Shown here in pieces: positions 4,027-57,817 of a stretch of 64,000 bases of DNA. The stretch is from a virus, in the IMG/VR virus record IMGVR_UViG_3300026209_000002, positions 1-64,000 of that record; one strand, given 5' to 3'. A program made the position numbers and the translations under genes. How positions within the stretch are numbered: the first letter of the stretch is position 1; each line of letters opens with the position of its first letter. Under the pieces are notes generated by a model. It worked only from the letters and a program-made list of their open reading frames with translations, ran no database searches and had not been told where the DNA came from.

Positions 4027-4557
4027 ATGATTAAGCTCAAAAAATTACTCACAGAACATGCTTGGAGTAGGAGTTTTGGTGAAAGTTTACCAACTTTAGA
4101 CTCAGTAAAGCAAAGACATCAAGAAAATAAAAAAACTACCTTAAATGAAGCTACACGTTGGATAATGGGTATGGAAGGACCAAATGGTAAAATAGTATCT
4201 ACTTACGGTCATTGGGATGGTTATCCTAAATATACAGGTAAAATGTTAAAAAAACATTATTCTAATACAGTTAAAGTAAAAGATTTATTGAAACTTGGTA
4301 AAGCTGGTATTTCTTCTATTAACAAAAAAATAAAAGGAACTAAAGACCATACATTTAATAGTCCTGAAAAAGATGTTAGTGTATTTTATGGTCGTGACAG
4401 GGGTGAGAAAACTTCTTCAATACAAAAATTTAAAAATAGAGATTCAATAAAATGGAATATGGGAGAAGAATATGCGTATATTTGGAATACTAAAGATAAT
4501 AAGTGGTATTATAGGTCGCGTCATTCGAATCCCCAAAAATGGACGGAGCTTAAATAA
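4027..4557 (+). CDS. Hypothetical protein with prohead-targeting-like leader
   Basis: A 176-aa basic protein of unknown function. It starts MIKLKKLLTEHA and then has TTLNEATRW at residues 37-45. Both LTE|H and LNE|A resemble the (L/I)-x-E cleavage motif of T4-type prohead protease, so residues 1-41 could be a removable leader and the mature chain would begin ATRWIMG. The same MIKLK start occurs in the genes at 19160 and 54808 and a variant at 5038, which suggests a shared N-terminal signal. The body (HWDGYPKYTG, MGEEYAYIWN, WYYRSRHS) has a repeated aromatic pattern reminiscent of small SH3-like or virulence-associated domains, but I cannot name a family. SD not obvious except AAGGA at 4016-4020. 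Confidence 0.6.
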   Translation: MIKLKKLLTEHAWSRSFGESLPTLDSVKQRHQENKKTTLNEATRWIMGMEGPNGKIVSTYGHWDGYPKYTGKMLKKHYSNTVKVKDLLKLGKAGISSINKKIKGTKDHTFNSPEKDVSVFYGRDRGEKTSSIQKFKNRDSIKWNMGEEYAYIWNTKDNKWYYRSRHSNPQKWTELK

Positions 4558-4558
4558 A

Positions 4559-5041
4559 ATGTTAACAACTTTTGATGAAATAATACAAATAACACTAGAC
4601 CACGAAGGTGGATATGTTCACGACCCGACTGATTTAGGTGGTGAAACTAATTTTGGCATAGCAAAACGATTCTATCCTGACGTAGATATTAAGAACCTAA
4701 CAGAAGATGGTGCAAAAGAAATCTACAAAAGAGATTATTGGGATAAGAATAAAGTTGATGATGTACCTGATGATTTAAAACATATCTTTTTTGATATGTG
4801 TGTGAATCAAGGTAGAGGAACTGCCGTAAAGATTTTACAACGAGCTATTAATGCAAAGGGTGGTGATTTAACAGTTGATGGTGGATTCGGTCCAGGTACA
4901 AAAGCTGCTTTGGCAAAACATACACCTGAATTAGATAGAGTTCGTTGTTACAGATTAAAACATTACTATGATTTAGTAAACAAGAAACCCGAACAAGAAC
5001 GATTTATATTTGGATGGTATAAAAGGGCATTGTCAGTATGA
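4559..5041 (+). CDS. GH108 N-acetylmuramidase endolysin with C-terminal peptidoglycan-binding region
   Basis: A 160-aa lysozyme-like protein. The GH108 signature LDHEGGY (catalytic Glu16) is followed by DPTDLGGETNFGI, as in ZliS/GH108 enzymes, and by YKRDYWDK and FFDMCVNQG. The C-terminal third contains DGGFGPGTKAAL, typical of the PG_binding_3 region that accompanies this family. It would cleave beta-1,4 bonds of peptidoglycan during lysis. I set the start at ATG 4559 because GGAG at 4545-4548 lies 10 nt upstream and the family similarity begins there; an in-frame extension from 4472 overlaps the previous gene and looks random. There is no signal peptide, so release to the wall would need a holin or other lysis protein. 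Confidence 0.88.
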   Translation: MLTTFDEIIQITLDHEGGYVHDPTDLGGETNFGIAKRFYPDVDIKNLTEDGAKEIYKRDYWDKNKVDDVPDDLKHIFFDMCVNQGRGTAVKILQRAINAKGGDLTVDGGFGPGTKAALAKHTPELDRVRCYRLKHYYDLVNKKPEQERFIFGWYKRALSV

Positions 5042-5310
5042 TTAGCTTAAAGTCTTTAATGAAAAATATGAAGGAAGCTAAAATTACTGCACCAAAGAAA
5101 GGTGTAGATACTCCACTTGACGCTAAGATACAAATACCTGGATATGGTGTTATGACACGTAAACAATTAAAGGGTGGTATGCAGAGAATAGTTACTGAAG
5201 TTTCTAAGTATTTGAAAAAAGGACAAGTAGAGAATGCTTATAATGTTTTGTATAAACAGAGTGTATTAAAGGGATTTTTAGAAACTGATATAAAACATAA
5301 CGGAAAATAA
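5038..5310 (+). CDS. Small hypothetical protein with internal-protein-like leader
   Basis: A 90-aa basic protein that overlaps the endolysin stop by 4 nt. The N-terminus MISLKSLMKNMKEAK is similar to the leaders at 4027, 19160 and 54808, and MKE|A at residues 11-14 would fit a relaxed prohead-protease site. The body has GYGVMTRKQLKGGMQRIV and a helical C-terminal half with no motif I recognise. Position between endolysin and the tandem-motif gene at 5313 suggests it belongs with the candidate head-internal proteins. Function unknown. Confidence 0.55.
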   Translation: MISLKSLMKNMKEAKITAPKKGVDTPLDAKIQIPGYGVMTRKQLKGGMQRIVTEVSKYLKKGQVENAYNVLYKQSVLKGFLETDIKHNGK

Positions 5311-5312
5311 TT

Positions 5313-5921
5313 ATGAAGATTAAAAAATCAAAACTTATAGAAATGATTCGTATTGAGTTGGAGGGATTCAAGAGTGATGCACAAAGGAGAGCTGCATTTG
5401 CTAGTGGATATAAGGCCAAAGGTAAGAAAAAGAAAAATAATGAATCCGTAAATGAAGGTAAGATGAATCTTTCATTTTTGAAAATTCAAACTAAAAATTT
5501 AGCAACGGATGTACAAGATTTGTTTATAGCAGTTAAAGGTGGTGATGAAGATGAAATTACATCTGAGTTAGACCAAGTTAAGTTTAGAATTGGTATGTTA
5601 AGAAAAAAAGGAATGGGATTAAGAGAATCCGTAAATGAAACTTTACCCAATAGGGTTTGGATGGATCTTCGAAAAAAATATAGTACGAATGAATTAAAAA
5701 GATTTTTTAAAAAAGAATCCGTAAATGAAGGTGGAATGGGTGTTTTATCGAAAGACCAGGCAGATATATTACAGGGGTTAGTGATGAAACATAAGAACAA
5801 AAATCCTAAAGCTATTTATAATGTTGTTATGAAAAGTCCACATTTTAAGGGAGTAGATAAAAAAGAGATGTTAGGATATATTCATGGGGCAATAGCTTTT
5901 TCAAAATATATGAAGATATAA
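5313..5921 (+). CDS. Modular basic protein with three ESVNE linkers (candidate head-internal polyprotein)
   Basis: This 202-aa protein is divided by three copies of ESVNE at residues 44-48, 105-109 and 135-139, each encoded by almost the same DNA (GAATCCGTAAATGAA at 5442, 5625 and 5715). They cut the chain into an N-terminal basic segment (SDAQRRAAFASGYKAKGKKK), an all-helical acidic/basic segment, a short segment and a helical C-terminal domain. V-N-E|G and V-N-E|T resemble (L/I)-x-E prohead-protease sites. No enzyme motif is visible. The gene abuts the modular gene at 5921 (1-nt overlap), which uses the same linkers. What I see is the repeat; processing and packaging into the head are inference. 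Confidence 0.6.
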   Translation: MKIKKSKLIEMIRIELEGFKSDAQRRAAFASGYKAKGKKKKNNESVNEGKMNLSFLKIQTKNLATDVQDLFIAVKGGDEDEITSELDQVKFRIGMLRKKGMGLRESVNETLPNRVWMDLRKKYSTNELKRFFKKESVNEGGMGVLSKDQADILQGLVMKHKNKNPKAIYNVVMKSPHFKGVDKKEMLGYIHGAIAFSKYMKI

Positions 5922-7819
5922 TGCCTGCTAAGTCTAAAGCTCAACAAAGATTTATGGGTATGGTTCACGCCTTTAATAAAGGTGAACTAAAAGGTTCAGA
6001 GGTATCTAAAGATGTAAAAGATGCCGCTAAATCTATGAAGAAGAAAGATACAAAAGATTTCGCTAAAACAAAACACAAGGGATTACCGAATAAAGTGAAA
6101 AAAGAAAATTTAATCAAATTAATTAAGTCTTATCTTAAACAAGAATCCTTAAAAGAAAGTGGTATTATGTACCGTGCTGGAGTGAAGAAATACGGAAAAG
6201 AAGGAATGACCAAAATTGTCCAAGCTGCGGGAAGAAAAGCGTCACATGCTGAAATAGGTAAGATTAAAGATAAGTATGATAAAACAAAGAAGGAATCTAC
6301 AGATGAAGGTTTTGGTGGAGATTTAAAAGGCAGTGATAAAAAGAAATTTGAAAAAGCTAGAAAAGAAAATGGTGAACAATTAGGATATACATTATCAGGA
6401 ACACCAGATGTAAAAGAAGAACGAGATTACAAGGCAGAATACAAAAAATATGGTTCATCTACTAAAGCAAAGAAATATAGAGCAGAATTAAACAAATATA
6501 ATCGTCAAAAAGGTACTTATGGTAATGGAGATGGTAAAGATGCTTCACATAAAGGTGGAAAGATAGTGGGATTTGAAGCAGAATCAAAAAATAGAGGTAG
6601 AGCAGAAAAAAGTCGTTTGAAAAAAGAATCCATAAATGAAGCTAGAACTATTAATGTTGAACCTAATTGGGAAGGTATGTGGAGATTTTTTAAGCAGATG
6701 GCAATAACTAACCCAAGAGATTGGAAACGAATGGAACGCACAATGGGTAGTGATTGGAAAAAAATAGATAAAATGGCACAACAAAAAGGATGGAAATTTG
6801 AATCAGTAAATGAAACTGTAATAAAAGAAAATCTAATGTCATTTTACAAATACATGGGTGATTTCTACGGAAAGAAAGGTATTTATCCTGATAAGAAAGG
6901 TAGGGATTTGAAGGTTGGGGATATAAACAAAGCCTTATCGGTTTATCTCAAGAAGTATGGAGCATCTGAATTCGAAGGTGATACTTTGGATAGAGAAAGA
7001 GTCCGTGATATTCTAATCAAGATGAGAAAGTTAGATCCTGATTATTCTAAAAAAGAATCCGTAACTGAAGGTAAAAATCCAAAGAGAGAAAAAGTTAAAA
7101 AAGATTTTAAGACATCTTTAAATTTTGCAAAGGGTGCTATAAGAAAAATTGAAACATTTATGAAATCAGATTATTGGGGAATGGCAGATAGATATGTAAC
7201 TGATAAACGAACTGGACTTGTATCTATTGTAAAAGATATGGAAAAATCTATGAACCAAATCATAAAAATGCCAGTAGATGAATCCATAAATGAAAGTGTT
7301 AGTAAAAGGATTACTGTAAAAGAAGTAAAGAAGTGGATGAAAACACTCGAAGAATTTAGATATAAGAGGATAAGTCCTGTAGATGCTCGTAGAGTTACTT
7401 CATTTATTAATAATAAATTAAAAGAAGAAGAATTACCACAAAGTTTACAGAAAAAATGGTCAGAAGCTAAATATAGTAGAGAAAAATATTTAGCAGCGAG
7501 GTATTTAAAATCAAATAAAAATACTATTAAAGAATCTAAAGATTGTTGTGATAATTGTAAAGAAGAAAAAACTTGTTGTTCTGTAAGTGAAGAGATACAA
7601 CCACAAGGTAATATTAAAAAAGTTCTTGATGTTGTAAAAAACAAACAACATACAAAAATTGGTGGAACTCTCATAGATGCTACGACAGCAGGTATGATGG
7701 CACAAGTATGGGATAAGGTAAACGATTCAAGTAAAGAAAAAATGAATAAGATGAATGTAAAACAACTCATTAATCTAATTTTAAAATTATGGAAAGCAGT
7801 AGGAACACCACGATTATGA
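5921..7819 (+). CDS. 632-aa string of small basic domains joined by xSxxE linkers (candidate internal polyprotein)
   Basis: The first 60 residues (KSKAQQRFMGMVHAF, DFAKTKHKGLP) match the DUF3008-type domain found alone or fused in many phages. The chain then runs through linkers ESLKE|S (75-79), ESTDE|G (125-129), ESINE|A (236-240), ESVNE|T (294-298), ESVTE|G (379-383), ESINE|S (454-458) and TIKE|S (535-538). Between them lie eight units of about 50-110 aa with unrelated sequence: one contains MYRAGVKKYGKEGM, one has a Gly/Lys-rich segment (GNGDGKDASHKGGK), one ends with a Cys cluster (CCDNCKEEKTCC, residues 542-553) followed by a helical domain. Most units are strongly basic. The linkers look like prohead-protease sites, so I infer a polyprotein cut inside the prohead. 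No catalytic motif was recognised. Confidence 0.65.
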   Translation: MPAKSKAQQRFMGMVHAFNKGELKGSEVSKDVKDAAKSMKKKDTKDFAKTKHKGLPNKVKKENLIKLIKSYLKQESLKESGIMYRAGVKKYGKEGMTKIVQAAGRKASHAEIGKIKDKYDKTKKESTDEGFGGDLKGSDKKKFEKARKENGEQLGYTLSGTPDVKEERDYKAEYKKYGSSTKAKKYRAELNKYNRQKGTYGNGDGKDASHKGGKIVGFEAESKNRGRAEKSRLKKESINEARTINVEPNWEGMWRFFKQMAITNPRDWKRMERTMGSDWKKIDKMAQQKGWKFESVNETVIKENLMSFYKYMGDFYGKKGIYPDKKGRDLKVGDINKALSVYLKKYGASEFEGDTLDRERVRDILIKMRKLDPDYSKKESVTEGKNPKREKVKKDFKTSLNFAKGAIRKIETFMKSDYWGMADRYVTDKRTGLVSIVKDMEKSMNQIIKMPVDESINESVSKRITVKEVKKWMKTLEEFRYKRISPVDARRVTSFINNKLKEEELPQSLQKKWSEAKYSREKYLAARYLKSNKNTIKESKDCCDNCKEEKTCCSVSEEIQPQGNIKKVLDVVKNKQHTKIGGTLIDATTAGMMAQVWDKVNDSSKEKMNKMNVKQLINLILKLWKAVGTPRL

Positions 7820-8244
7820 AAATAAGTGTAAAAGAATTAAAGCAAGCAATAAAAGAATCACCAGAAGCTTTTAATAATACGTTAACCTATAATGAATTAG
7901 AAGAAGTTATTCAAGAAGCATATGAAAATGGATTTTTTGAAGATATAACTTTGGAAGATATCGCTGATACAAAACAGTTTAGTACTATGATGGAAGCTTT
8001 TTTATCAGAACTTAAATTTAAACGAGTTATTAGAGGTAAGAAGATTTTTAAGAAAGTTATTTGTCCTAAAAATAAAAAGTTTGTTAAACCATTAAACAAA
8101 TGCGTTCAAAAATCTGCCAAAGAGAAAATCAAAAAGAAAAAAGCTATGAAAAAGGCCGCTATAAAGAGGCGTGGTAAAATGGGTATGATATTACGGAAAC
8201 GATTAAAGTCATTAAAGAAACGTGCAGCATTTGGTCTTAAATAA
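7816..8244 (+). CDS. Highly basic C-terminal-tail protein, possible DNA-binding internal protein
   Basis: A 142-aa protein; I use ATG 7816, which overlaps the previous stop (ATGA) and gives the leader-like start MKISVKELKQAIKES, rather than an in-frame start at 7789 inside the upstream gene. IKE|S at 12-15 and IQE|A further on fit the candidate protease motif. The first 70 residues are acidic and helical. The C-terminal 75 are very basic, with a CPKNKKFVKPLNKC pair of cysteines followed by runs of Lys and Arg (KKKKAMKKAAIKRRGKMG). This tail is a recurring element in T4-like marine phages. A role in condensing DNA in the head or escorting it on ejection is plausible but not shown. Confidence 0.55.
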   Translation: MKISVKELKQAIKESPEAFNNTLTYNELEEVIQEAYENGFFEDITLEDIADTKQFSTMMEAFLSELKFKRVIRGKKIFKKVICPKNKKFVKPLNKCVQKSAKEKIKKKKAMKKAAIKRRGKMGMILRKRLKSLKKRAAFGLK

Positions 8245-16815: not shown

Positions 16816-17697
16816 ATGTCAAAAAAAGTTAGGCACGCGAAGCTTAAAAATACGGGTGTATTATTTGAAGTATTGACCCGTCAAGTAACAGCGGACATTA
16901 TTAGTAATAGAAATTCTAATGCTGTTAATGTCATTAAAGAGTTTTTTAATAAAGATAAAGAACTTGGTAAAGAATTAGAATTATATAATATTCTAACAAA
17001 TGAAACATATAACACAACAGAGAAAGCTACTAAGTTAGTAGAGGCAGTTGTGAAGTCTCGTCAGAAGCTAGCAAATTCTATATTAAGACGAGAAAAATAT
17101 AATTTAATTAAAGAGATTAAAAACAATTATGATGTTAATGAATTGTTTGCAACTCGTATTCCAAATTATAAAAGATTAGCTTCAATTTATAAATTGTTTG
17201 AACATGAAGCAACAGATAAAACTCTTGTACCAAATGAGTATGTAGATGTTCATTCTTATCTAGTAGAATGTATATCCTCAAGTAAAGTTGTTAAAAAAGA
17301 AACTGCAACTGGTGTAATTGGTGAGGATAAAGATGTTCGTCTGTTAGCATATACTCTAATGATAGAAAAATTTAATAAAAAGTATTCTACTTTAAATGAA
17401 AGACAGAAACGTGTATTGAAAAATTATATTAATAATGTTTCTAATACAAATAATTTACATGAATATGTTTCTGGTGAAGTAACTGAAATAAAAAAAGAAT
17501 TGACAACTTTGTTACCAGATATTGATGATGAAGTTACAAAGATAAAGTTATCTGAAGTTATTAAACAAGCAGATACAATAGTTAGTAAGAAAACAATTAG
17601 TGAAGAGAATCTTACTAAGTTGATGCGGTACTATGAACTCATACAGGAAATAAAGAATGTCCATAAGCGAAAGTCAACTAAGACAATTAATTCGTAA
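16816..17697 (+). CDS. Conserved hypothetical head-region protein between portal and prohead protease
   Basis: A 293-aa mostly helical protein. Recognisable phrases are KLKNTGVLFEVLTRQVTADI and YALFATRIPNYK-like text (VNELFATRIPNYKRLASIY), which I associate with a conserved protein in marine T4-like phages at the same position, but I know no function. No catalytic or metal-binding motif is visible. It has a good GGAG and the candidate promoter just upstream, so it is the first gene of a new transcription unit. The next gene starts inside it (41-nt overlap). T4 has the small core proteins gp67 and gp68 at this location, but the length here is different, so equivalence is not claimed. Confidence 0.65.
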   Translation: MSKKVRHAKLKNTGVLFEVLTRQVTADIISNRNSNAVNVIKEFFNKDKELGKELELYNILTNETYNTTEKATKLVEAVVKSRQKLANSILRREKYNLIKEIKNNYDVNELFATRIPNYKRLASIYKLFEHEATDKTLVPNEYVDVHSYLVECISSSKVVKKETATGVIGEDKDVRLLAYTLMIEKFNKKYSTLNERQKRVLKNYINNVSNTNNLHEYVSGEVTEIKKELTTLLPDIDDEVTKIKLSEVIKQADTIVSKKTISEENLTKLMRYYELIQEIKNVHKRKSTKTINS

Positions 17698-18277
17698 GTT
17701 AGTAGGAGAAGTCTTAAAAGAATTAGATGAGGCTTCTGTTACAGGTAACGTACCTGGGTATAATACACCTAATGCTTTTACGAAAAAATCAGATGTTAAA
17801 AAGAAAAAGAAACATATGGCAGATTTAATTGGGTTCACTTTAGCAGAGGCAGCTAAGACGAAAAAATTTTTACTTGTAGTACCTAAAAATATTTATGGTG
17901 GTGTTAGAGCGGTATTTGATTCTAAAGCAGCAGCACAACGATATATGGAAGACAATATACCATCCGAAGCTTGGAAACATGTTAGTATAAAACCAACAAT
18001 GTTACCAGTAGTACATCCAGCCGAATCTGTAACTGAAGGTAAATACCACGATTACAGAAATGATGAGTCTTTATCACCTAAACAAAAAATTGGACAATCT
18101 ATTCGAGAAATTAGAGATAGGTTGAATGAATTGGATAAAAGTATTAAAATGAATGTTCGTTTGAAAAATGAATTGGGAGTAGATTCTCGACAGTATTGGA
18201 AACGAACCAAAGGAGCTTTAACCAAAATAAGTGAAAGATTAGTTAAGATGGCTAAACGTGTAGGGGAGATGTATTAA
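17657..18277 (+). CDS. Modular head-region protein with several protease-site-like motifs
   Basis: A 206-aa protein whose start lies 41 nt inside the upstream gene. The N-terminus is an amphipathic helix (SQLRQLIRKLVGEVLKELDE) ending in LDE25|A; LAE64|A and ESVTE127|G follow. The last uses the same GAATCTGTAACTGAAGGT type of DNA as the linkers in the 5313 and 5921 genes. The piece after residue 26 (SVTGNVPGYNTPNAF) is a phrase common in T4-like marine phages. The final third is a charged coiled-coil-like helix (IREIRDRLNELDKSIK). I infer a prohead-core or internal protein processed by the neighbouring protease; function otherwise unknown. Confidence 0.55.
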   Translation: MSISESQLRQLIRKLVGEVLKELDEASVTGNVPGYNTPNAFTKKSDVKKKKKHMADLIGFTLAEAAKTKKFLLVVPKNIYGGVRAVFDSKAAAQRYMEDNIPSEAWKHVSIKPTMLPVVHPAESVTEGKYHDYRNDESLSPKQKIGQSIREIRDRLNELDKSIKMNVRLKNELGVDSRQYWKRTKGALTKISERLVKMAKRVGEMY

Positions 18278-24670: not shown

Positions 24671-24710
24671 TACTGACTAATTATAACAATTTTTTAATTG
24701 GAGAATATTG

Positions 24711-25271
24711 ATGAAATTGAAATCATATTTAAATGCAGGAACATTGATCACGATGGAAAACGGAGACCAAAAAGCAATAGAAAGCTTAACAGAAGGTGAT
24801 AAGGTACAAACTTACCTAACAAGTGAAGATTTTGATATGGCTCATATTGGTGAAAATGAACAAAATGTATGTACAATATCTGATGTTATTGAAGCGGAGG
24901 TCGACGCAACAGATATAGTAAAATTAAACTTTGAAGATGATGTAAGTTTAATAACGACAAACGACCAACCAATTTATGGAGCATCAGAAGAAACGGGTTG
25001 GTTAGTTCCTAATGTAGAAGCTATGGAAAAAATTATCGGTAGACAAAATATTGATGAAAGTGAAGACGTTGAAGGTACAGGAGAGTTAGCACAAGAGTTA
25101 CAAGTAGGTAACACTGTACATCAAGATGATGGGGATACCGTTGCAGATATTACATTAGAATCTATTGAAAATGTAGAAGGCATTCATACTATGTATTGTT
25201 TGGGAATAACCGAAGAAAATGCATCGTTTGTTTTTGCAAATAATATTTTAATATGTGCAGGAACGTTATAA
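24711..25271 (+). CDS. Hint-like (Hedgehog/intein fold) protein, without catalytic Cys
   Basis: A 186-aa protein. Its start LNAGTLITMENGDQKAIESL is arranged like block A of inteins and Hedgehog Hint domains (xxGTxIxxxDGxxxxIxxL), followed by EGDKVQTY. The middle LITTNDQPIYG is in the place of block B (TxxHP). The end, FVFANNILICAG, is like block G (FxANGIxVHN). The block A nucleophile Cys or Ser is Ala9, and block B His is Gln, so protein splicing or autocleavage is not expected. Start at ATG 24711 (a TTG 3 nt earlier is less likely). It lies next to another Hint-like gene in the neck region; I infer a virion protein using the Hint fold. Confidence 0.6.
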   Translation: MKLKSYLNAGTLITMENGDQKAIESLTEGDKVQTYLTSEDFDMAHIGENEQNVCTISDVIEAEVDATDIVKLNFEDDVSLITTNDQPIYGASEETGWLVPNVEAMEKIIGRQNIDESEDVEGTGELAQELQVGNTVHQDDGDTVADITLESIENVEGIHTMYCLGITEENASFVFANNILICAGTL

Positions 25272-25290: not shown

Positions 25291-26109
25291 ATGGAACAGA
25301 TTAAACCTGGAGTAGTACGAGGTACTATGATAACTATGTATCATGAAGATGGTAGTTATCAAAAACCAATAGAAGAAGTACAAGAGGGTGATATAATCAA
25401 AACATTTGATATGAATTCTGATGATTATGATGGTGCTCATCCAGAAATGAATCAAGCTACTTATAAGAGAGTAGCTAAAAAAACTAAACAAAAGGCTACA
25501 AAGTTAGTTAAAATAAAGTATAGTGATGGTTCGGATTTGATTACCACTATTGGACATCCAATGAGGATGCAAGCTATGCCGTGTGGTATAGTTTATCGAG
25601 ATGATGGTATAGAAACTCGTGGGTGTAGTGAAGTAGATGAAAATATGGAAGAATATGATAGAGTGGGTGCACGAGCAAAAACGATTACAGATATAGACGA
25701 TGTTGATGATTGGGCAAAAGAATTAGGATATCATTTTTGTTGTAATGTAGGATTTGAATCATATTCTCCTGAAAGAAAATATACAGAAACTAAATATGAT
25801 ATAAATGATTTAAGATTTAATAATATAGTTACAAAAAATGAATGGAAAACAGCACAGTTACAACTTGGTGGGTTTCCAATTTTAGATGGGAATTTAGGAT
25901 TGGAAGTCATACGACAAAAAGTTGATGGAGATTATGATAAAATGGTAGAGGAAGCAGTAACTGTAGTTGGATTTGAAGATATAGATGGTGAGTTTGAAAC
26001 TTACACTATAGGTGATACAACTGGAGAAGAAATGACTAATTATTTTGCAAACAATAAACTTATATCTCCAGCAATGGGAGAACACGATAATGAACAAGAA
26101 CATAAATAG
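25291..26109 (+). CDS. Second Hint-like protein, with block B histidine
   Basis: A 272-aa protein. VVRGTMITMYHEDGSYQKPIEEV plus QEGDIIKTFDM again follows the Hint block A layout (the usual Cys is Arg10, with R10-G11-T12). Block B is better preserved than in the upstream gene: SDLITTIGHPM, with T85/T86 and His89. An insert of about 110 residues follows, and the C-terminus TGEEMTNYFANNKLISPAM resembles block G. The two proteins are paralogous in layout although divergent in sequence. The function may be structural or maturation of neck/tail proteins. It is followed after 11 nt by the neck gene with GGAG. Confidence 0.6.
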   Translation: MEQIKPGVVRGTMITMYHEDGSYQKPIEEVQEGDIIKTFDMNSDDYDGAHPEMNQATYKRVAKKTKQKATKLVKIKYSDGSDLITTIGHPMRMQAMPCGIVYRDDGIETRGCSEVDENMEEYDRVGARAKTITDIDDVDDWAKELGYHFCCNVGFESYSPERKYTETKYDINDLRFNNIVTKNEWKTAQLQLGGFPILDGNLGLEVIRQKVDGDYDKMVEEAVTVVGFEDIDGEFETYTIGDTTGEEMTNYFANNKLISPAMGEHDNEQEHK

Positions 26110-44962: not shown

Positions 44963-45454
44963 ATGCCCGAATTAATTGATGCAAATGAAATTATGTTCAC
45001 TCCGTTTGAACCGAAGACTAAGAATCGGTTTATTATGTATATAGAGGGAATACCAGCGTATCTTGTTAAGACAGCTAATAGACCTCAAATTACATTTGAA
45101 GAAATCGTTCTTGATCACATGAATGTTAAACGATATGTTAAGGGTAAAGGTGAATGGCAACCATTGGCTACTACTCTATATGACCCAATTGTACCGTCAG
45201 CTGCACAGTCAGTTATGGAATGGGTAAGATTATCTCACGAATCAGTTACAGGTCGTGATGGATATACCGATTTTTATAAAAAAGATGTAACATTTAATTT
45301 ATTAGGGCCTGTTGGTGATGTTGTAGAAGAATGGACATTAAAGGGAGCTTGGGCACAAGATGTCAACTTTAATGATGTGGATTTCTCCAATAGTACAGAC
45401 CCAGTAGATATCGAGTTAACACTTCGATACGATTACGCAATATTACAATTCTAA
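44963..45454 (+). CDS. gp19: Tail tube protein (gp19-like)
   Basis: A 163-aa protein, the same length as T4 gp19. FEPKTKNRFIMYIEGIPAYLVKTANRP is the hallmark N-terminal strand-turn-strand of the T4-type tube family; VKRYVKGKGEWQPLATTLYDP and the C-terminal DPVDIELTLRYDYAIL are also typical. It polymerises into the inner tail tube, through which DNA passes. It follows the sheath gene, as in T4, but the sheath-tube pair is here far from the terminase and portal genes. Confidence 0.95.
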   Translation: MPELIDANEIMFTPFEPKTKNRFIMYIEGIPAYLVKTANRPQITFEEIVLDHMNVKRYVKGKGEWQPLATTLYDPIVPSAAQSVMEWVRLSHESVTGRDGYTDFYKKDVTFNLLGPVGDVVEEWTLKGAWAQDVNFNDVDFSNSTDPVDIELTLRYDYAILQF

Positions 45455-45676: not shown

Positions 45677-45712
45677 AAAAAAGTTATAGTTTTTCATTAA
45701 GGAGAATATTAA

Positions 45713-46471
45713 ATGCCTGAGACTACAAAGTTTCCTACGGAAGTCATAGACTTACCGTCAAGAGGACGCTTTTACAACAAAGATAATCCATTGTCTAATG
45801 GACAAGTGGAATTAAAATACATGACAGCTAAAGAAGAAGATATTTTAACTTCTGAGACATTAATTAAGAAAGGTATCGTAGTAGATTACCTATTAAGAGA
45901 ATTAATTGTTGATAAAAAAGTTAAATTAGATGAAATGTTACTTGGTGATAAGAATGCAATATTGATATCAGCAAGAATATTAGCTTATGGTAAACAGTAT
46001 AAATTTCAAGGGACAAATTCTAACGAAGAGATGGAAGAATTTGAAGTAGATTTGTCTAAGATTGAAGAAGTGGACATAGATTATGATTCATTTACAATTG
46101 ATGAAAATGGTGAGGTGGAATATAAATTACCACAAACCGAAAGAGTTATTAAATTTAGAGTAATGACATCTGGACAAATGGACAAAGTTGATGCGGAGAC
46201 AAAAGCATTACAAAAGGTTTCAGAAATAGATAGAACATTGACTACAAGATTAAAAAGTCAAATTACAGAAGTTGATGGTAATCGTGAAAGAAAAGTTATA
46301 AATAACTTTGTTGATAACGAATTATTTTCTATTGATAGTTTATCTCTAAGAGCGTATATAATGTCAGTAACCCCAGACTTGGAAATGATCGTGAAGGTGA
46401 CGGACAAATACGGAGAGGAGATAGACGCGGCAGTACCATTAACTGCCGAGTTTTTTTGGCCTTCCTCGTGA
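45713..46471 (+). CDS. gp26: Baseplate hub assembly protein (gp26-like, T4_baseplate family)
   Basis: A 252-aa protein. The T4_baseplate (PF12322-type) pattern is visible: IDLPSRGRFY near residue 13, LKYMTAKEEDILTSETLI, VDYLLRELIVDKK, and AILISARILAYGKQYKF. C-terminally, LTTRLKSQITEVDGNRE is followed by SLRAYIMSVTPDLEM. Such proteins act as hub assembly or tail chaperones. The last codons contain a run of seven T (46451-46457), and an overlapping frame carries on for about 65 codons, so the stop at 46469-46471 may be bypassed by a frameshift. Confidence 0.78.
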   Translation: MPETTKFPTEVIDLPSRGRFYNKDNPLSNGQVELKYMTAKEEDILTSETLIKKGIVVDYLLRELIVDKKVKLDEMLLGDKNAILISARILAYGKQYKFQGTNSNEEMEEFEVDLSKIEEVDIDYDSFTIDENGEVEYKLPQTERVIKFRVMTSGQMDKVDAETKALQKVSEIDRTLTTRLKSQITEVDGNRERKVINNFVDNELFSIDSLSLRAYIMSVTPDLEMIVKVTDKYGEEIDAAVPLTAEFFWPSS

Positions 46472-46661
46472 GTATCGTGCAGAGTTACACGAACAAATAT
46501 TTCAATTAATATTCCACTCTAAAGGTGGATTTACCTACAAACAAGCTTATAATTTACCAGTTTATCTACGTCGTTGGTATTTAAAACGATTGATAAAAGC
46601 ATATGAAGATGAGGCTAAAGAGTTTGAGAAGGCTCGTCATAATGTCTTAAAAAATAGATAA
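46443..46661 (+). CDS. gp51-like/tail-chaperone C-terminal frame without its own start codon (candidate +1 frameshift product)
   Basis: This frame is open from the codon after TAA at 46440-46442 to the stop at 46659-46661, and encodes FFGLPREYRAELHEQIFQ, then FHSKGGFTYKQAYNLPVYL and RRWYLKRLIKAYEDEAKEF. The pattern GGF-x(4)-AYNLPVYLRRWYLK is like the gp51 or lambda-T type proteins encoded after the gp26-type gene. It has no ATG, GTG or early TTG start; the only codon options are CTG 46443 or a frameshift. The 7-T run in GAG TTT TTT TGG lies exactly where the two frames meet. A +1 (or -2) slip would produce a gp26-gp51 fusion of about 320 aa. Confidence 0.65.
   Translation: MPSFFGLPREYRAELHEQIFQLIFHSKGGFTYKQAYNLPVYLRRWYLKRLIKAYEDEAKEFEKARHNVLKNR
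46451..46457 (+). other. Seven-T slippery run, candidate programmed frameshift site
   Basis: TTTTTTT in the frame GAG-TTT-TTT-TGG at the end of the gp26-like gene. The +1 frame after it reads GGC-CTT-CCT-CGT-GAG (GLPRE). A -1 slip would lead to a short frame that stops at about 46512, so +1/-2 is the useful direction. Confidence 0.5.
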
Positions 46662-47016: not shown

Positions 47017-48474
47017 ATGGCAAAACAACTGACTCCAGAAGCGGTCGAAAAATTAGCAGGTAAGTTTGAAAAACTAGGAAACCTTAGTGAAAACGTATTG
47101 ATTGCGTTTGACAAATTAGATGGTAGTATACAAAAAGGTGAAGAATCCGCCGATAAGTTTAATAAAGCTATAAATTTAGCTAAAGATGCGGCTGAACAAA
47201 CCGCAAAGAACGCTAACAATATGGGTAAGAGTTCATTTAAGGGTGTTGACTGGAAACAAGTAGAAAAAGCCATGAAAGCAGCCGTAGAATCAAATGAGAT
47301 GAGTAAAGATGATTATAAACTTAAAAAGAAAAACTTGGATGCTATAAAGAAAGAGGGTAAACATTATGAAGCTGCTAATGATATGGCTGGTAATATATCT
47401 TCAGGTTTTGACTCGGCGAGAGATAATGTTCAAGGAATGGTTGGTAAAATACCAGGTGTAGGGAAGAAATGGTCAGCAAGTGTTGGTAAAGCGTTTGATG
47501 CAAAGAAGAATAAAGCATTATCTTCCTTTACTAACAAGGTTCTTTCTGGTGGAAAATCTTTTGCAAAGATTTTGAAATTCTCAAAAGCGTTAGCAGGTCC
47601 ATTAGCAGTAGCTGGTGGTTTTGTTGTATCTATGGCGTTAAATATTCATAAGTTCGCTACTAATACTGGTTTATCTTATGCTCAAACGGTCAAGTTAGGG
47701 TCAGCTTTAGCTGTTAATGAAAAAGCAGTAACTGCTATGACTAAAGAGTTTGGTAATATTAATGAGGTTACGACAGGATTAGCCGTACAGATGAAACGGA
47801 TGAGTTTACAGTTTTCAATATCTGAAGAAAATGCTGCAGCAATCCTTCGTGTTCAAAAAGCAGTTAGTGGAGCGACTAACGAACAATTATTAAATATGCA
47901 AATGGCGACAGCTCAATTAGCAAGACAAAGAGGTGTAGCACCTGCTGATGTATTTGCTGATATCGCTGGAAGTACAGAAGCATTTGCAAAATTCTCAGCT
48001 GATGGTGGTAAGAATGTTATGGCAGCAGCAGTATCTGCTAAATCTTTAGGTCTTAATTTATCTACGGTACAAAAGGTAGCTGAAGGATTATTAGATATTG
48101 AAGGTTCAATTAGTAAACAGATGGAAGCTTCAGTATTGATTGGTAGAGAGTTGAATCTTGATAAAGCAAGACAATTAGCTTTAAGTGGTGATTTAGAAGG
48201 AGTATTGAGAGAGGTTAAGAACCAAGTTGGTGGAGAAGCTGAATTCAATAGAATGAATGTCATACAGAGACAGAAGTTAGCTGAAGCAGTAGGATTATCC
48301 ACATCAGAATTAGCAAGATTGACAACAACTCAAGCAAACACAATGGCTGGAGCCGCTGCCGCAAGTGGAGCCGCTATTGGTGAAGGAGCTAAAGCTCAAA
48401 TTGAGGCTACACACGAACTTGCAACTGTAACAGAAAAAGGTTTTAAGAATACAGTTGATGCAATTAAGGAATAA
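47017..48474 (+). CDS. Tape measure/tail length protein (gp29-like)
   Basis: A 485-aa, mainly helical protein. An N-terminal coiled coil (LAGKFEKLGNLSENVLIAFDKL) leads to a hydrophobic stretch (GPLAVAGGFVVSMALNIHKF, about 196-215) and an Ala-rich region (GLDxEGSISKQMEASVLIGRELNLDKAR-like: LLDIEGSISKQMEASVLIGR). This last pattern is frequent in myovirus tape-measure proteins. Position after gp26/gp51 and before baseplate genes matches T4 gene 29. It would set tail length and may insert in the membrane at infection. The length is modest relative to T4 gp29 (590 aa). Confidence 0.6.
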   Translation: MAKQLTPEAVEKLAGKFEKLGNLSENVLIAFDKLDGSIQKGEESADKFNKAINLAKDAAEQTAKNANNMGKSSFKGVDWKQVEKAMKAAVESNEMSKDDYKLKKKNLDAIKKEGKHYEAANDMAGNISSGFDSARDNVQGMVGKIPGVGKKWSASVGKAFDAKKNKALSSFTNKVLSGGKSFAKILKFSKALAGPLAVAGGFVVSMALNIHKFATNTGLSYAQTVKLGSALAVNEKAVTAMTKEFGNINEVTTGLAVQMKRMSLQFSISEENAAAILRVQKAVSGATNEQLLNMQMATAQLARQRGVAPADVFADIAGSTEAFAKFSADGGKNVMAAAVSAKSLGLNLSTVQKVAEGLLDIEGSISKQMEASVLIGRELNLDKARQLALSGDLEGVLREVKNQVGGEAEFNRMNVIQRQKLAEAVGLSTSELARLTTTQANTMAGAAAASGAAIGEGAKAQIEATHELATVTEKGFKNTVDAIKE

Positions 48475-55788: not shown

Positions 55789-55962
55789 ATGAAATATAAG
55801 ATAAAAAAAAATCTATTTACAGTTAATGGAACACTATATATAGATGAGGTTGTTAAAACCGACAAAACAGTTATAAAAGATTCAAAAGGGAAAATCAAGG
55901 TAAAAGATCAAGTGGGTAAAATTTGGTATATATTACCTGAATATCTCAAAGAGGTTACATGA
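55789..55962 (+). CDS. 57-aa hypothetical protein
   Basis: A short gene (ATG 55789, TGA 55960-55962) overlapping the ThyX start by 4 nt, with AATAGG 4-9 nt upstream of the ATG. The product is basic and beta-rich (YKIKKNLFTVNGTLYIDEVV, KGKIKVKDQVGKIWYI), like a small SH3-type fold. Overlap with thyX suggests coupling. Function unknown. Confidence 0.5.
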   Translation: MKYKIKKNLFTVNGTLYIDEVVKTDKTVIKDSKGKIKVKDQVGKIWYILPEYLKEVT

Positions 55963-56663
55963 AAATAGATGTATTAGATAAGGGTTATATCGAGTTAGTA
56001 GATAAACTTGGTGATGACCTTACACCTGTAAATGCAGCTCGTGTATCATTTGGACAACGAAGTGATACCTTTACAGAGAAAGATAGGAAGTTGTCTAAGT
56101 TCTTAATCAAACACAAACACTTTTCACCATTTCGGCATCAACACATTATGCTGATTATCAAGGCACCCGAATTTGTAATGAGACAAGCATATAAGCATGT
56201 CGTTGGGATAGAAACCACATCAGACCATCCTACCAAAGACCACGCTTGGAATGAGATTAGTGGTCGTTATATGGAAGTAGAAGATTTTTATTATCCTGAA
56301 GTATGGAGAAAACAGTCTGATGATAACAAACAAGCTTCGGAAGGTGAGTTAGATGATTTACAACAAAAACGAATGTCTGAGATTTATAAACAATATATGA
56401 GACAAGTAGAGATGACTTATGAAAGAATGATTGATTCTGGTATGGCAAAAGAACAAGCTCGAATTGTTTTACCTCTTTCACAATACACTCAAGTTTGGTG
56501 GACAGCTTCATTTCAATCTGTGATGAATTTTATAGAGTTAAGAGATGAACCTACAGCACAAGTAGAGATACAAGAATACGCAAGAGCATTAAAGAAAATA
56601 ATGTTAGATGTATTTCCTGAAACCACTAAACTATGGAGTGAAATTTATTTGAATGAGGATTAA
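55959..56663 (+). CDS. thyX: Flavin-dependent thymidylate synthase ThyX
   Basis: A 234-aa ThyX. TPVNAARVSFGQRSD near residue 22, HKHFSPFRHQHIMLIIKAPEFVMRQ near 50-75, and HAWNEISGRYMEV (about 94-106) are family landmarks; the last corresponds to the RHRxxSxNExSxR signature, with the RHR part changed to KDHAWNEISGRY. LPLSQYTQVWWTASFQSVMNFIELR is the C-terminal catalytic segment. It makes dTMP from dUMP using FADH2 and methylene-tetrahydrofolate without needing a separate DHFR. It supplies phage DNA synthesis. The next gene (nagB) starts 11 nt before its stop. Confidence 0.92.
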   Translation: MKIDVLDKGYIELVDKLGDDLTPVNAARVSFGQRSDTFTEKDRKLSKFLIKHKHFSPFRHQHIMLIIKAPEFVMRQAYKHVVGIETTSDHPTKDHAWNEISGRYMEVEDFYYPEVWRKQSDDNKQASEGELDDLQQKRMSEIYKQYMRQVEMTYERMIDSGMAKEQARIVLPLSQYTQVWWTASFQSVMNFIELRDEPTAQVEIQEYARALKKIMLDVFPETTKLWSEIYLNED

Positions 56664-57324
56664 GAATGTTACATATCAAAAAGCTTGTCATTTAATAGCA
56701 TCAAATATTCGTGATTTAATAAAAACTCACACTACCTCAGTATTGGGGTTAGCGACAGGTTCAACACCTATTGGAATTTATCAAGAACTATCTAAGATGA
56801 GAGATACAAACTTTTCTGATACGATTACTTTTAATCTTGATGAATATGTTGGATTAAATGGATGGCATCCACAATCATACAATCATTTTATGTATGAACA
56901 TCTATTTGCTAATTTAACATTTAAAAAACGATATTTTCCAAGTGTAAATGGAGTAGCTTTATATGATGATTTAATAGACGCTTATGGTGGTATTGATATA
57001 CAGATACTTGGTATTGGAACTAATGGACATATAGGATTTAATGAACCAAACACACCAAGAGATTCAAAAACTCATGTGGTTGATTTAACAGAGAATACAA
57101 TTAAAGATAATAGTAGGTTTTTTGATTCTATAGATGAAGTTCCCTCACAAGCAATAACAATGGGAATAGAAACTATTATGAATACAAAACGAATTTATTT
57201 AGTAGCACAAGGTAAACATAAAAAGGATATTTTAGAGAAGGCAATATATGGAGATATAACTCCTGAAGTCCCTGCTTCATTTTTACAAGAACATGATAAC
57301 TTAAAGGTATTTTATTGTGATTGA
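56653..57324 (+). CDS. nagB: Glucosamine-6-phosphate deaminase NagB-like
   Basis: A 223-aa protein. The NagB signature appears in order: LGLATGSTPIGIYQEL (phosphate-binding loop), ITFNLDEYVGL, HPQSYNHFMYEHLF, ILGIGTNGHIGFNEPNTP with catalytic residues, and ITMGIETIMNTKRIYLVAQG. E. coli NagB has 266 aa; the C-terminal part here is slightly shorter. The reaction is glucosamine-6-P to fructose-6-P plus ammonia. It overlaps thyX and the PIG-L-type deacetylase, so two amino-sugar enzymes lie together, which suggests use of host amino sugars from peptidoglycan or LPS precursors during infection. Confidence 0.9.
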   Translation: MRIKNVTYQKACHLIASNIRDLIKTHTTSVLGLATGSTPIGIYQELSKMRDTNFSDTITFNLDEYVGLNGWHPQSYNHFMYEHLFANLTFKKRYFPSVNGVALYDDLIDAYGGIDIQILGIGTNGHIGFNEPNTPRDSKTHVVDLTENTIKDNSRFFDSIDEVPSQAITMGIETIMNTKRIYLVAQGKHKKDILEKAIYGDITPEVPASFLQEHDNLKVFYCD

Positions 57325-57817
57325 TAAGATAATGATTGTAGCACACCCTGATGATGAGGCACTATTTGGTGGAGCTGAATTACTATCGTATCCAAAAGAA
57401 TATAAAGTTGTAGTAGTAGATGAATATCATAATGAAGTTAGACGAGAAGAATTTAAAGCATCTATGGAGTTTATAGGAATAGAAGAATATGAACATTGGA
57501 CAGGTTATAAAGGTGGAGAAGATTATCATAGAGAAAAACTTATTTATGAATTACTTAGAGTATTGAGAGAAAGAAAATATAAAAAGATAGTAACACATAA
57601 CAGACAAGGTGAATACGGACATCCAAGACATAGAGCATTACATGATATATTAAATCATTTAAGACCTGAACTATTGTGGTGTTTTGATAAATCTAAAGAT
57701 AGGTTACACGAAGATATATTATATAAGAAAAGAGATTTATTAAAAGTATATAAGAGTCAAAGAGAAGTATTAGATTGGTTTAGTCCTTGGTATGAGACGA
57801 TAAAAAAACATTTATAA
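57317..57817 (+). CDS. PIG-L/LmbE-type N-deacetylase
   Basis: A 166-aa protein with the metal-binding motif AHPDDEALFGG near residue 8 and the second motif GEYGHPRHRALH near 105, both characteristic of the PIG-L (LmbE) zinc deacetylases, which remove acetyl from N-acetylglucosaminyl compounds. It is shorter than usual (220-250 aa). GTG 57317 overlaps the nagB stop; ATG 57332 is an alternative. Together with NagB it could convert GlcNAc-type compounds to fructose-6-P, although most PIG-L enzymes act on glycoconjugates, not free GlcNAc-6-P. Confidence 0.82.
   Translation: MIDKIMIVAHPDDEALFGGAELLSYPKEYKVVVVDEYHNEVRREEFKASMEFIGIEEYEHWTGYKGGEDYHREKLIYELLRVLRERKYKKIVTHNRQGEYGHPRHRALHDILNHLRPELLWCFDKSKDRLHEDILYKKRDLLKVYKSQREVLDWFSPWYETIKKHL

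Follow-up and report, generated by a model that had tools for sequence, protein, structure and literature searches.

Results

A Gene with an Overlapping Second Frame

The stretch analyzed (the window) comprises 64,000 nucleotides of a 67.7 kb record of a marine, T4-related virus (IMG/VR record IMGVR_UViG_3300026209_000002) and carries T4-like structural genes for terminase, a gp23-type head protein, sheath and tube. The tail tube gene, whose product gave a sub-cut-off score against PF06841 (E 0.0032), is followed by an ATG-initiated ORF of 252 amino acids with AAGGAG upstream, which we call TAC-N for reasons given below (Table 1). Its final codons are GAG TTT TTT TGG CCT TCC TCG TGA, and at the run of seven Ts it meets a second open frame, placed +1 (equivalently -2) relative to the gp26-like ORF and encoding a domain of 67 residues, TAC-C. 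The product of the +1 frame begins GLPREYRAELHEQIFQLIFHSKGGFTYKQAYNLPVYLRRWYLKRL.... The coordinates and frame relation of this junction, reported in a first-pass annotation, were confirmed, as was its claim that the second frame has no usable start: in the window, no ATG, GTG or TTG occurs in this frame upstream of the conserved core, and 42 of the 80 related loci described below have none of the three near the domain. The near-start codons of the frame are, in full, CTG at 46443, ATA at 46497, 46509 and 46593, and TTG at 46590, the last lying within the conserved domain. At this composition, a random frame would stay open over 67 codons with P ~0.002 per locus.

Table 1. Positions of the chaperone gene, its recoding signal and its neighbors in the window
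Feature	Position	Strand	Evidence or remark
Tail tube protein (gp19-like), 5' neighbor of TAC gene	44963..45454	+	phrog_4542 E 6.4e-26, phrog_45 E 1.2e-6
Shine-Dalgarno-like AAGGAG of TAC gene	45699..45704	+	
TAC-N, gp26-like short form, zero frame	45713..46471	+	phrog_150 E 1.6e-9; AlphaFold2 pLDDT 94
Open +1 frame	46443..46661	+	begins right after TAA 46440-46442
Putative recoding signal TTT.TTT.TGG.CC (T7 46451-46457, then GGCC)	46451..46461	+	near-invariant in 83 junctions and 10 MAG contigs
TAC-C domain	~46455 to stop TAA 46659-46661	+	conservation; AlphaFold2 three-helix model, pLDDT 88.5
Zero-frame stop TGA, 18 nt past first T	46469..46471	+	
Inferred TAC-NC, 315 aa, ...LTAEFF-GLPREYRAEL...	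join(45713..46456,46458..46661), span 45713..46661	+	translation; shift inferred
Candidate tape measure protein	47017..48474	+	position only

Elsewhere in the window, neighboring ORFs at 24708-25271 and 25291-26109 (GTLITMENGDQKAIESLTEGDKVQTY... and GTMITMYHEDGSYQKPIEEVQEGDIIKTF...), located between the head genes and the neck genes, resemble by eye Hint-domain proteins (intein/hedgehog type) that stand alone. Short motifs such as KKESVNE or KKESINE and LIKLIKSYL-like starts recur in several ORFs at 4027-8244 and 17657-18277; they may serve as sites for a prohead protease or as peptides for capsid targeting. Tandem ORFs at 55959-57817 resemble, again by eye, the thymidylate synthase ThyX, a glucosamine-6-phosphate deaminase and a PIG-L type deacetylase, uncommon cargo adjoining tail genes.

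The Frame Relation Is Shared by Relatives

The joined N and C protein, used as a query against IMG/VR, matched 80 loci, most of them at 41-55% identity. With separate tblastn queries for each half, the C half was found in the +1 frame in all 75 loci having both halves, and in none of these were the frames fused. The relation was repeated in three named phage records, the isolates Flavobacterium phage immuto and Microcystis phage Mel-JY01 and the huge-phage assembly LR756508, and in 10 of 10 two-part loci from a separate check scan of bacterial and archaeal assemblies (MAG contigs). The identical +1/-2 relation is thus present in 88 of 88 relatives with both parts, a count that includes one locus (L001) 100% identical to the window across 6038 bp and so not an independent allele; since the loci are related, such counts are not independent trials. 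Protein identity of TAC-C among the relatives ranges from 25 to 62%, and a zero-frame stop follows the site by 15-24 nt in all complete junctions. In the deposited annotations, TAC-C appears as the hypothetical gene immuto26A_233 in immuto (L082:8854-8964), a late-starting fragment of 36 aa, and as the hypothetical gene WWT39326 in Mel-JY01 (L081:8743-8979).

Deleting one T joins the two frames of the window, and the first-pass annotation had itself raised a homopolymer error, in sequencing or assembly, that would disguise one ordinary gene with a run of six Ts. Such an error is nevertheless extremely improbable: the shared frame relation makes it untenable, as the 75 IMG/VR loci, the 10 MAG loci and the named phages agree and none fuses the frames, and nine sites read TTTCTTT, containing no seven-base homopolymer. 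TAC-C might also be started separately, at a non-standard codon (in the window CTG 46443, which opens the +1 frame) or by reinitiation. Some ATG, GTG or TTG is indeed found in the +1 frame near the junction in 38 of the 80 loci, but the start positions vary without being conserved, ATG is absent from 61 loci, and strict conservation belongs instead to the TTT.TTT.TGG.CC site. We consider separate initiation highly unlikely because none of the three codons occurs near the domain in the other 42 loci. With T run and frame relation kept in relatives, the programmed frameshift suggested in the first-pass annotation is supported.

The Putative Slip Site and the Likely Direction

Across 83 junctions, among them the window itself, the identical L001 and a truncated locus, the site reads TTTTTTTGGCCT in 62 cases, TTTCTTTGGCCT in nine, TTTTTTTGGCCA in six and TTTTTTTACCCT in three, with TTTTTATGGCCT, CTTTTTTGGCCT and TTTCTATTCCCT seen once each. 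Counting the first T as 0, positions 1, 2, 4, 6, 9 and 10 are invariant in 81 aligned junctions. Part of this conservation must be due to dual-frame coding (FFWP and FFGL), a constraint implying that both frames are translated at the site. As most sites contain a homopolymer, transcriptional slippage on the T run could in principle give mRNAs of mixed length. That mechanism needs an unbroken run, however, and is strongly disfavored by the variants TTTCTTT (nine loci), TTTCTATTC, TTTTTA and CTTTTTT, which keep the frame relation without seven Ts; the conserved GGCC and the lineage-specific hairpins described below also suit ribosomes better.

The first-pass annotation had left the event as "+1 or -2", and its frame relation holds for both. 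A -2 shift, with the P-site tRNA backing up by two bases along the T run, would end in the same frame with an extra Phe (FFFGLP), and phage Mu employs such a shift (PMC5009743). We applied a codon-anticodon re-pairing rule, permissive for CTA, to 86 sites. Re-pairing after a +1 move is allowed in all 86, at one or the other of the two tandem codons, whereas -2 re-pairing at the second codon is allowed in 84 and fails in Streptococcus phage GXN1 (TTC.TTT.CGT) and L008 (TTT.TTA.TGG), so that the exclusion of -2 comes from these two sites alone, of which the L008 variant could be a sequencing error. A third site, L083, passes for -2 only thanks to the permissive wobble rule. With a +1 slip, the product also has a pair of Phe at its joint, matching the inference for the -1 relatives described below. 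As +1 fits every site and gives this two-Phe joint, it is the more likely event, and a -2 shift seems to us improbable. Either Phe codon may be the point of slippage: L008, L083 and LIS04 allow only the first, and GXN1 only the second.

Possible Stimulatory Elements

In 17 of 82 junctions, a GC-rich stem of 5-8 bp begins 11-16 nt past the first T, compared with 5 of 1,818 control windows from the same loci (0.27%). In one set of ten junctions with the hairpin, three of the six stem pairs change on both sides; the alignment holds 8 such both-side-change cells, where shuffled versions hold 2.6 and slid versions few or none. On the tree, the hairpin lineages are clustered, yet do not form one group, and the hairpins therefore look like lineage-specific additions. 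Folding gave no significant local RNA structure at the window's own site (z -0.21), and an Rfam search gave no match.

Shine-Dalgarno (SD)-like motifs precede 29 of 48 window genes vs 9% of random positions, so the host probably uses SD. The +1 slip of RF2 (prfB) at CUU_U resembles the one proposed here in its YUU_U site, to which the CTT.TGG variants are similar; the difference is that the window site has neither a stop codon in the A site nor an SD at RF2 spacing 5' of the slip. A GGAG-rich stretch ~30 nt upstream was considered for RF2-like SD stimulation and rejected for its wrong spacing.

The Gene Probably Encodes a Tail Assembly Chaperone

The window's TAC-N matches phrog_150 (E 1.6e-9), a family labeled baseplate hub that contains T4 gp26 and gp51; among its relatives, 22 of 22 match phrog_150 and 14 of 22 match PF12322. 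PF12322 did not match the TAC-N of the window, where Pfam searches of the proteins found no tail assembly chaperone (TAC) family, and searches with PF20546 and PF12322 in the virus's own record and in control genomes gave no match and are uninformative. Within the 282 positions of this family, T4 gp26 spans 14-235 and T4 gp51 13-280, indicating that T4 holds a short and a long paralogue.

The N and C parts were modeled apart with AlphaFold2, from alignments consisting of the window and contig rows only, and gave a confident TAC-N (pLDDT 94) and a TAC-C of three helices (pLDDT 88.5). The best 3 of 979 solved chains in a VIA-align comparison of TAC-N residues 1-101 were 3fgx (Z 6.1), 3klu (YqbN; Z 5.6) and 2ob9, the HK97 TAC (Z 4.8), modest scores that all lie below Z 8; 3fgx and 3klu we take to be TAC relatives. 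Foldseek gave no significant match in the PDB, the HK97 TAC ranking sixth (E 1.7), and the TAC-C model had no match in BFVD at E <= 0.001. The gene occupies the slot between tail tube and candidate tape measure, with the tube gene on its 5' side; a family search with the candidate tape measure protein gave no match. In immuto, the gene sits between a tube-position gene and an annotated tail tape measure protein, and in SP-15 and LIS04 it likewise follows the tail tube. From the phrog_150 match, the structural matches and the tube-to-tape-measure slot, the gene is best read as a TAC, with a short TAC-N and a long TAC-NC from one gene.

In the first-pass annotation, the two frames were taken for a gp26-gp51 pair. 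The gp26-like part stands; the second frame is, judging from its sequence, a C-terminal TAC domain and not gene 51 itself. T4 carries gp51 as a long paralogue separate from gp26, and TAC-C matches the C terminus of gp51 weakly: the +1 C domains align with it in register at hhalign E 0.015, with low probability, and the -1-frame C domains described below at E 7e-4, also in register and with low probability. The TAC-C domains (alignment A4) further gave weak Pfam matches to DUF6760 (PF20546) in 3 of 14 members (best E 0.0021), and DUF6760 may, from this likeness, perhaps be another tail chaperone C domain.

Distant Relatives and the Direction of the Proposed Shift

The C part is also +1 in SP-15, LIS04 and GXN1, with the sites TTT.TTT.CAC, TTT.TTT.AGT and TTC.TTT.CGT, respectively. 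In seven jumbo phages (RAS14, XacN1, Atu_ph07, PA5oct, BF, XaC1 and RaK2) it lies in the -1 frame, following classical heptamers, T.TTT.TTT or T.TTT.TTC (T.TTT.TTY), at the equivalent FF position. Profile comparison shows homology between the C domains of the window and -1 clades (Prob 94, E 1.3e-7). In a tree of the N parts, the -1 phages form one group that the Gram-positive +1 phages join with weak support (97/55), long branches leaving the branching order unsure. Either the frame direction changed at least once or the two directions arose separately. Scans of viral contigs returned only SP-15 itself with the SP-15 query and nothing with the XacN1 query, and the S-PM2 stretch examined contains no gene labeled gp26. 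Another jumbo relative, LR756511 (L101), could not be placed: no clear FF slip site is present at the end of its N ORF, although the -1 frame holds an open GRKDF...PINERKYI-like C domain.

Discussion

From the arrangement, conservation, homology and synteny described above, we infer that one TAC gene very probably gives TAC-N and, by a +1 ribosomal slip, TAC-NC. The majority of ribosomes would terminate at the TGA and produce the short form. A minority would slip +1 with peptidyl-tRNA(Phe) on the tandem UUU codons while the slow UGG, or the UUU beside it, is in the A site, and resume reading at GGC CUU CCU to give the long form with the junction ...AEFF-GLPREY.... By analogy with lambda gpG/gpGT, the tape measure protein would be coated by many copies of TAC-N and a few of TAC-NC, the latter recruiting tail tube subunits through its C domain. 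In immuto, whose site is AGC.TTT.CTT.TGG.CCT, the predicted junction is ...IGVSFLGLTPEYR for +1 at the second codon, ...IGVSFFGLTPEYR for +1 at the first and ...IGVSFLFGLTPEYR for -2.

Frameshifting of TACs is established in -1, -2 and +1 forms across phages, and a 2016 review describes G/T frameshifting as conserved in long-tailed phages with T4 as the exception (PMC5009743). Lambda gpG/gpGT resembles the present gene in lying before the tape measure and in making a short and a long chaperone by frameshifting near the end of the first ORF, but shifts -1; the TAC of the archaeal halovirus HSTV-2, a myovirus, very likely shifts +1, the direction proposed here (both PMC5009743). The TACs of Pseudomonas phage Adele and the Vandenendeviridae share a poly-T slippery site ending TAC-N and a C part misannotated as hypothetical, but use the -1 frame and a GTTTTT motif (PMC12846349). 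As far as citing papers convey, TACs of T4-like phages were identified by Vladimirov, Gautam and Davidson (2022, Virology 566:9-15), a study that PMC12846349 cites for -1 signals of the poly-T kind in the TAC-N genes of T4-like phages; the signals described there differ from the +1 relation of the window. A passage of PMC10885494 reports a T4-like two-gene solution, short plus fused. T4 gp26 and gp51 belong to the same family as the window's gene, share the N part between short and long forms and act in tail assembly; the difference is that T4 has two genes and the window one gene with a frame junction.

The general idea of a T4-like frameshift, which the first-pass annotation had thought notable, was therefore already published, and what appears to be new in T4-like TACs is the +1 direction, the near-invariant signal and the lineage-specific covarying hairpins. 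The abstract of the 2022 study reportedly names gp26 and gp51 and says that frameshifting is kept in several T4-like groups. Within the limited literature covered, including that study through papers citing it, we found no description of a +1 relation and near-invariant signal in the T4 gp26/gp51 family.

On balance, we favor one family with three routes to the short/long pair: +1 in the window clade and SP-15-like phages, -1 in jumbo phages and duplication in T4. The +1 route would use UUU.UUU.UGG.CC, near-invariant across a large clade and backed by a hairpin in some lineages, and the direction would have switched one or more times while the FF position stayed fixed. As relatives of T4 frameshift abundantly and in either direction, the two-gene solution of T4 looks derived or alternative, not unrelated. 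In named phages of this family, the C domain has been annotated as a hypothetical gene only. For forward shifts, the current predictor PRFect reports no motif of general use, and it missed all 481 of them in its RECODE test (PMC10885494); the clade, with some 90 naturally occurring versions of a single +1 site, provides a data set on what forward frameshifting requires.
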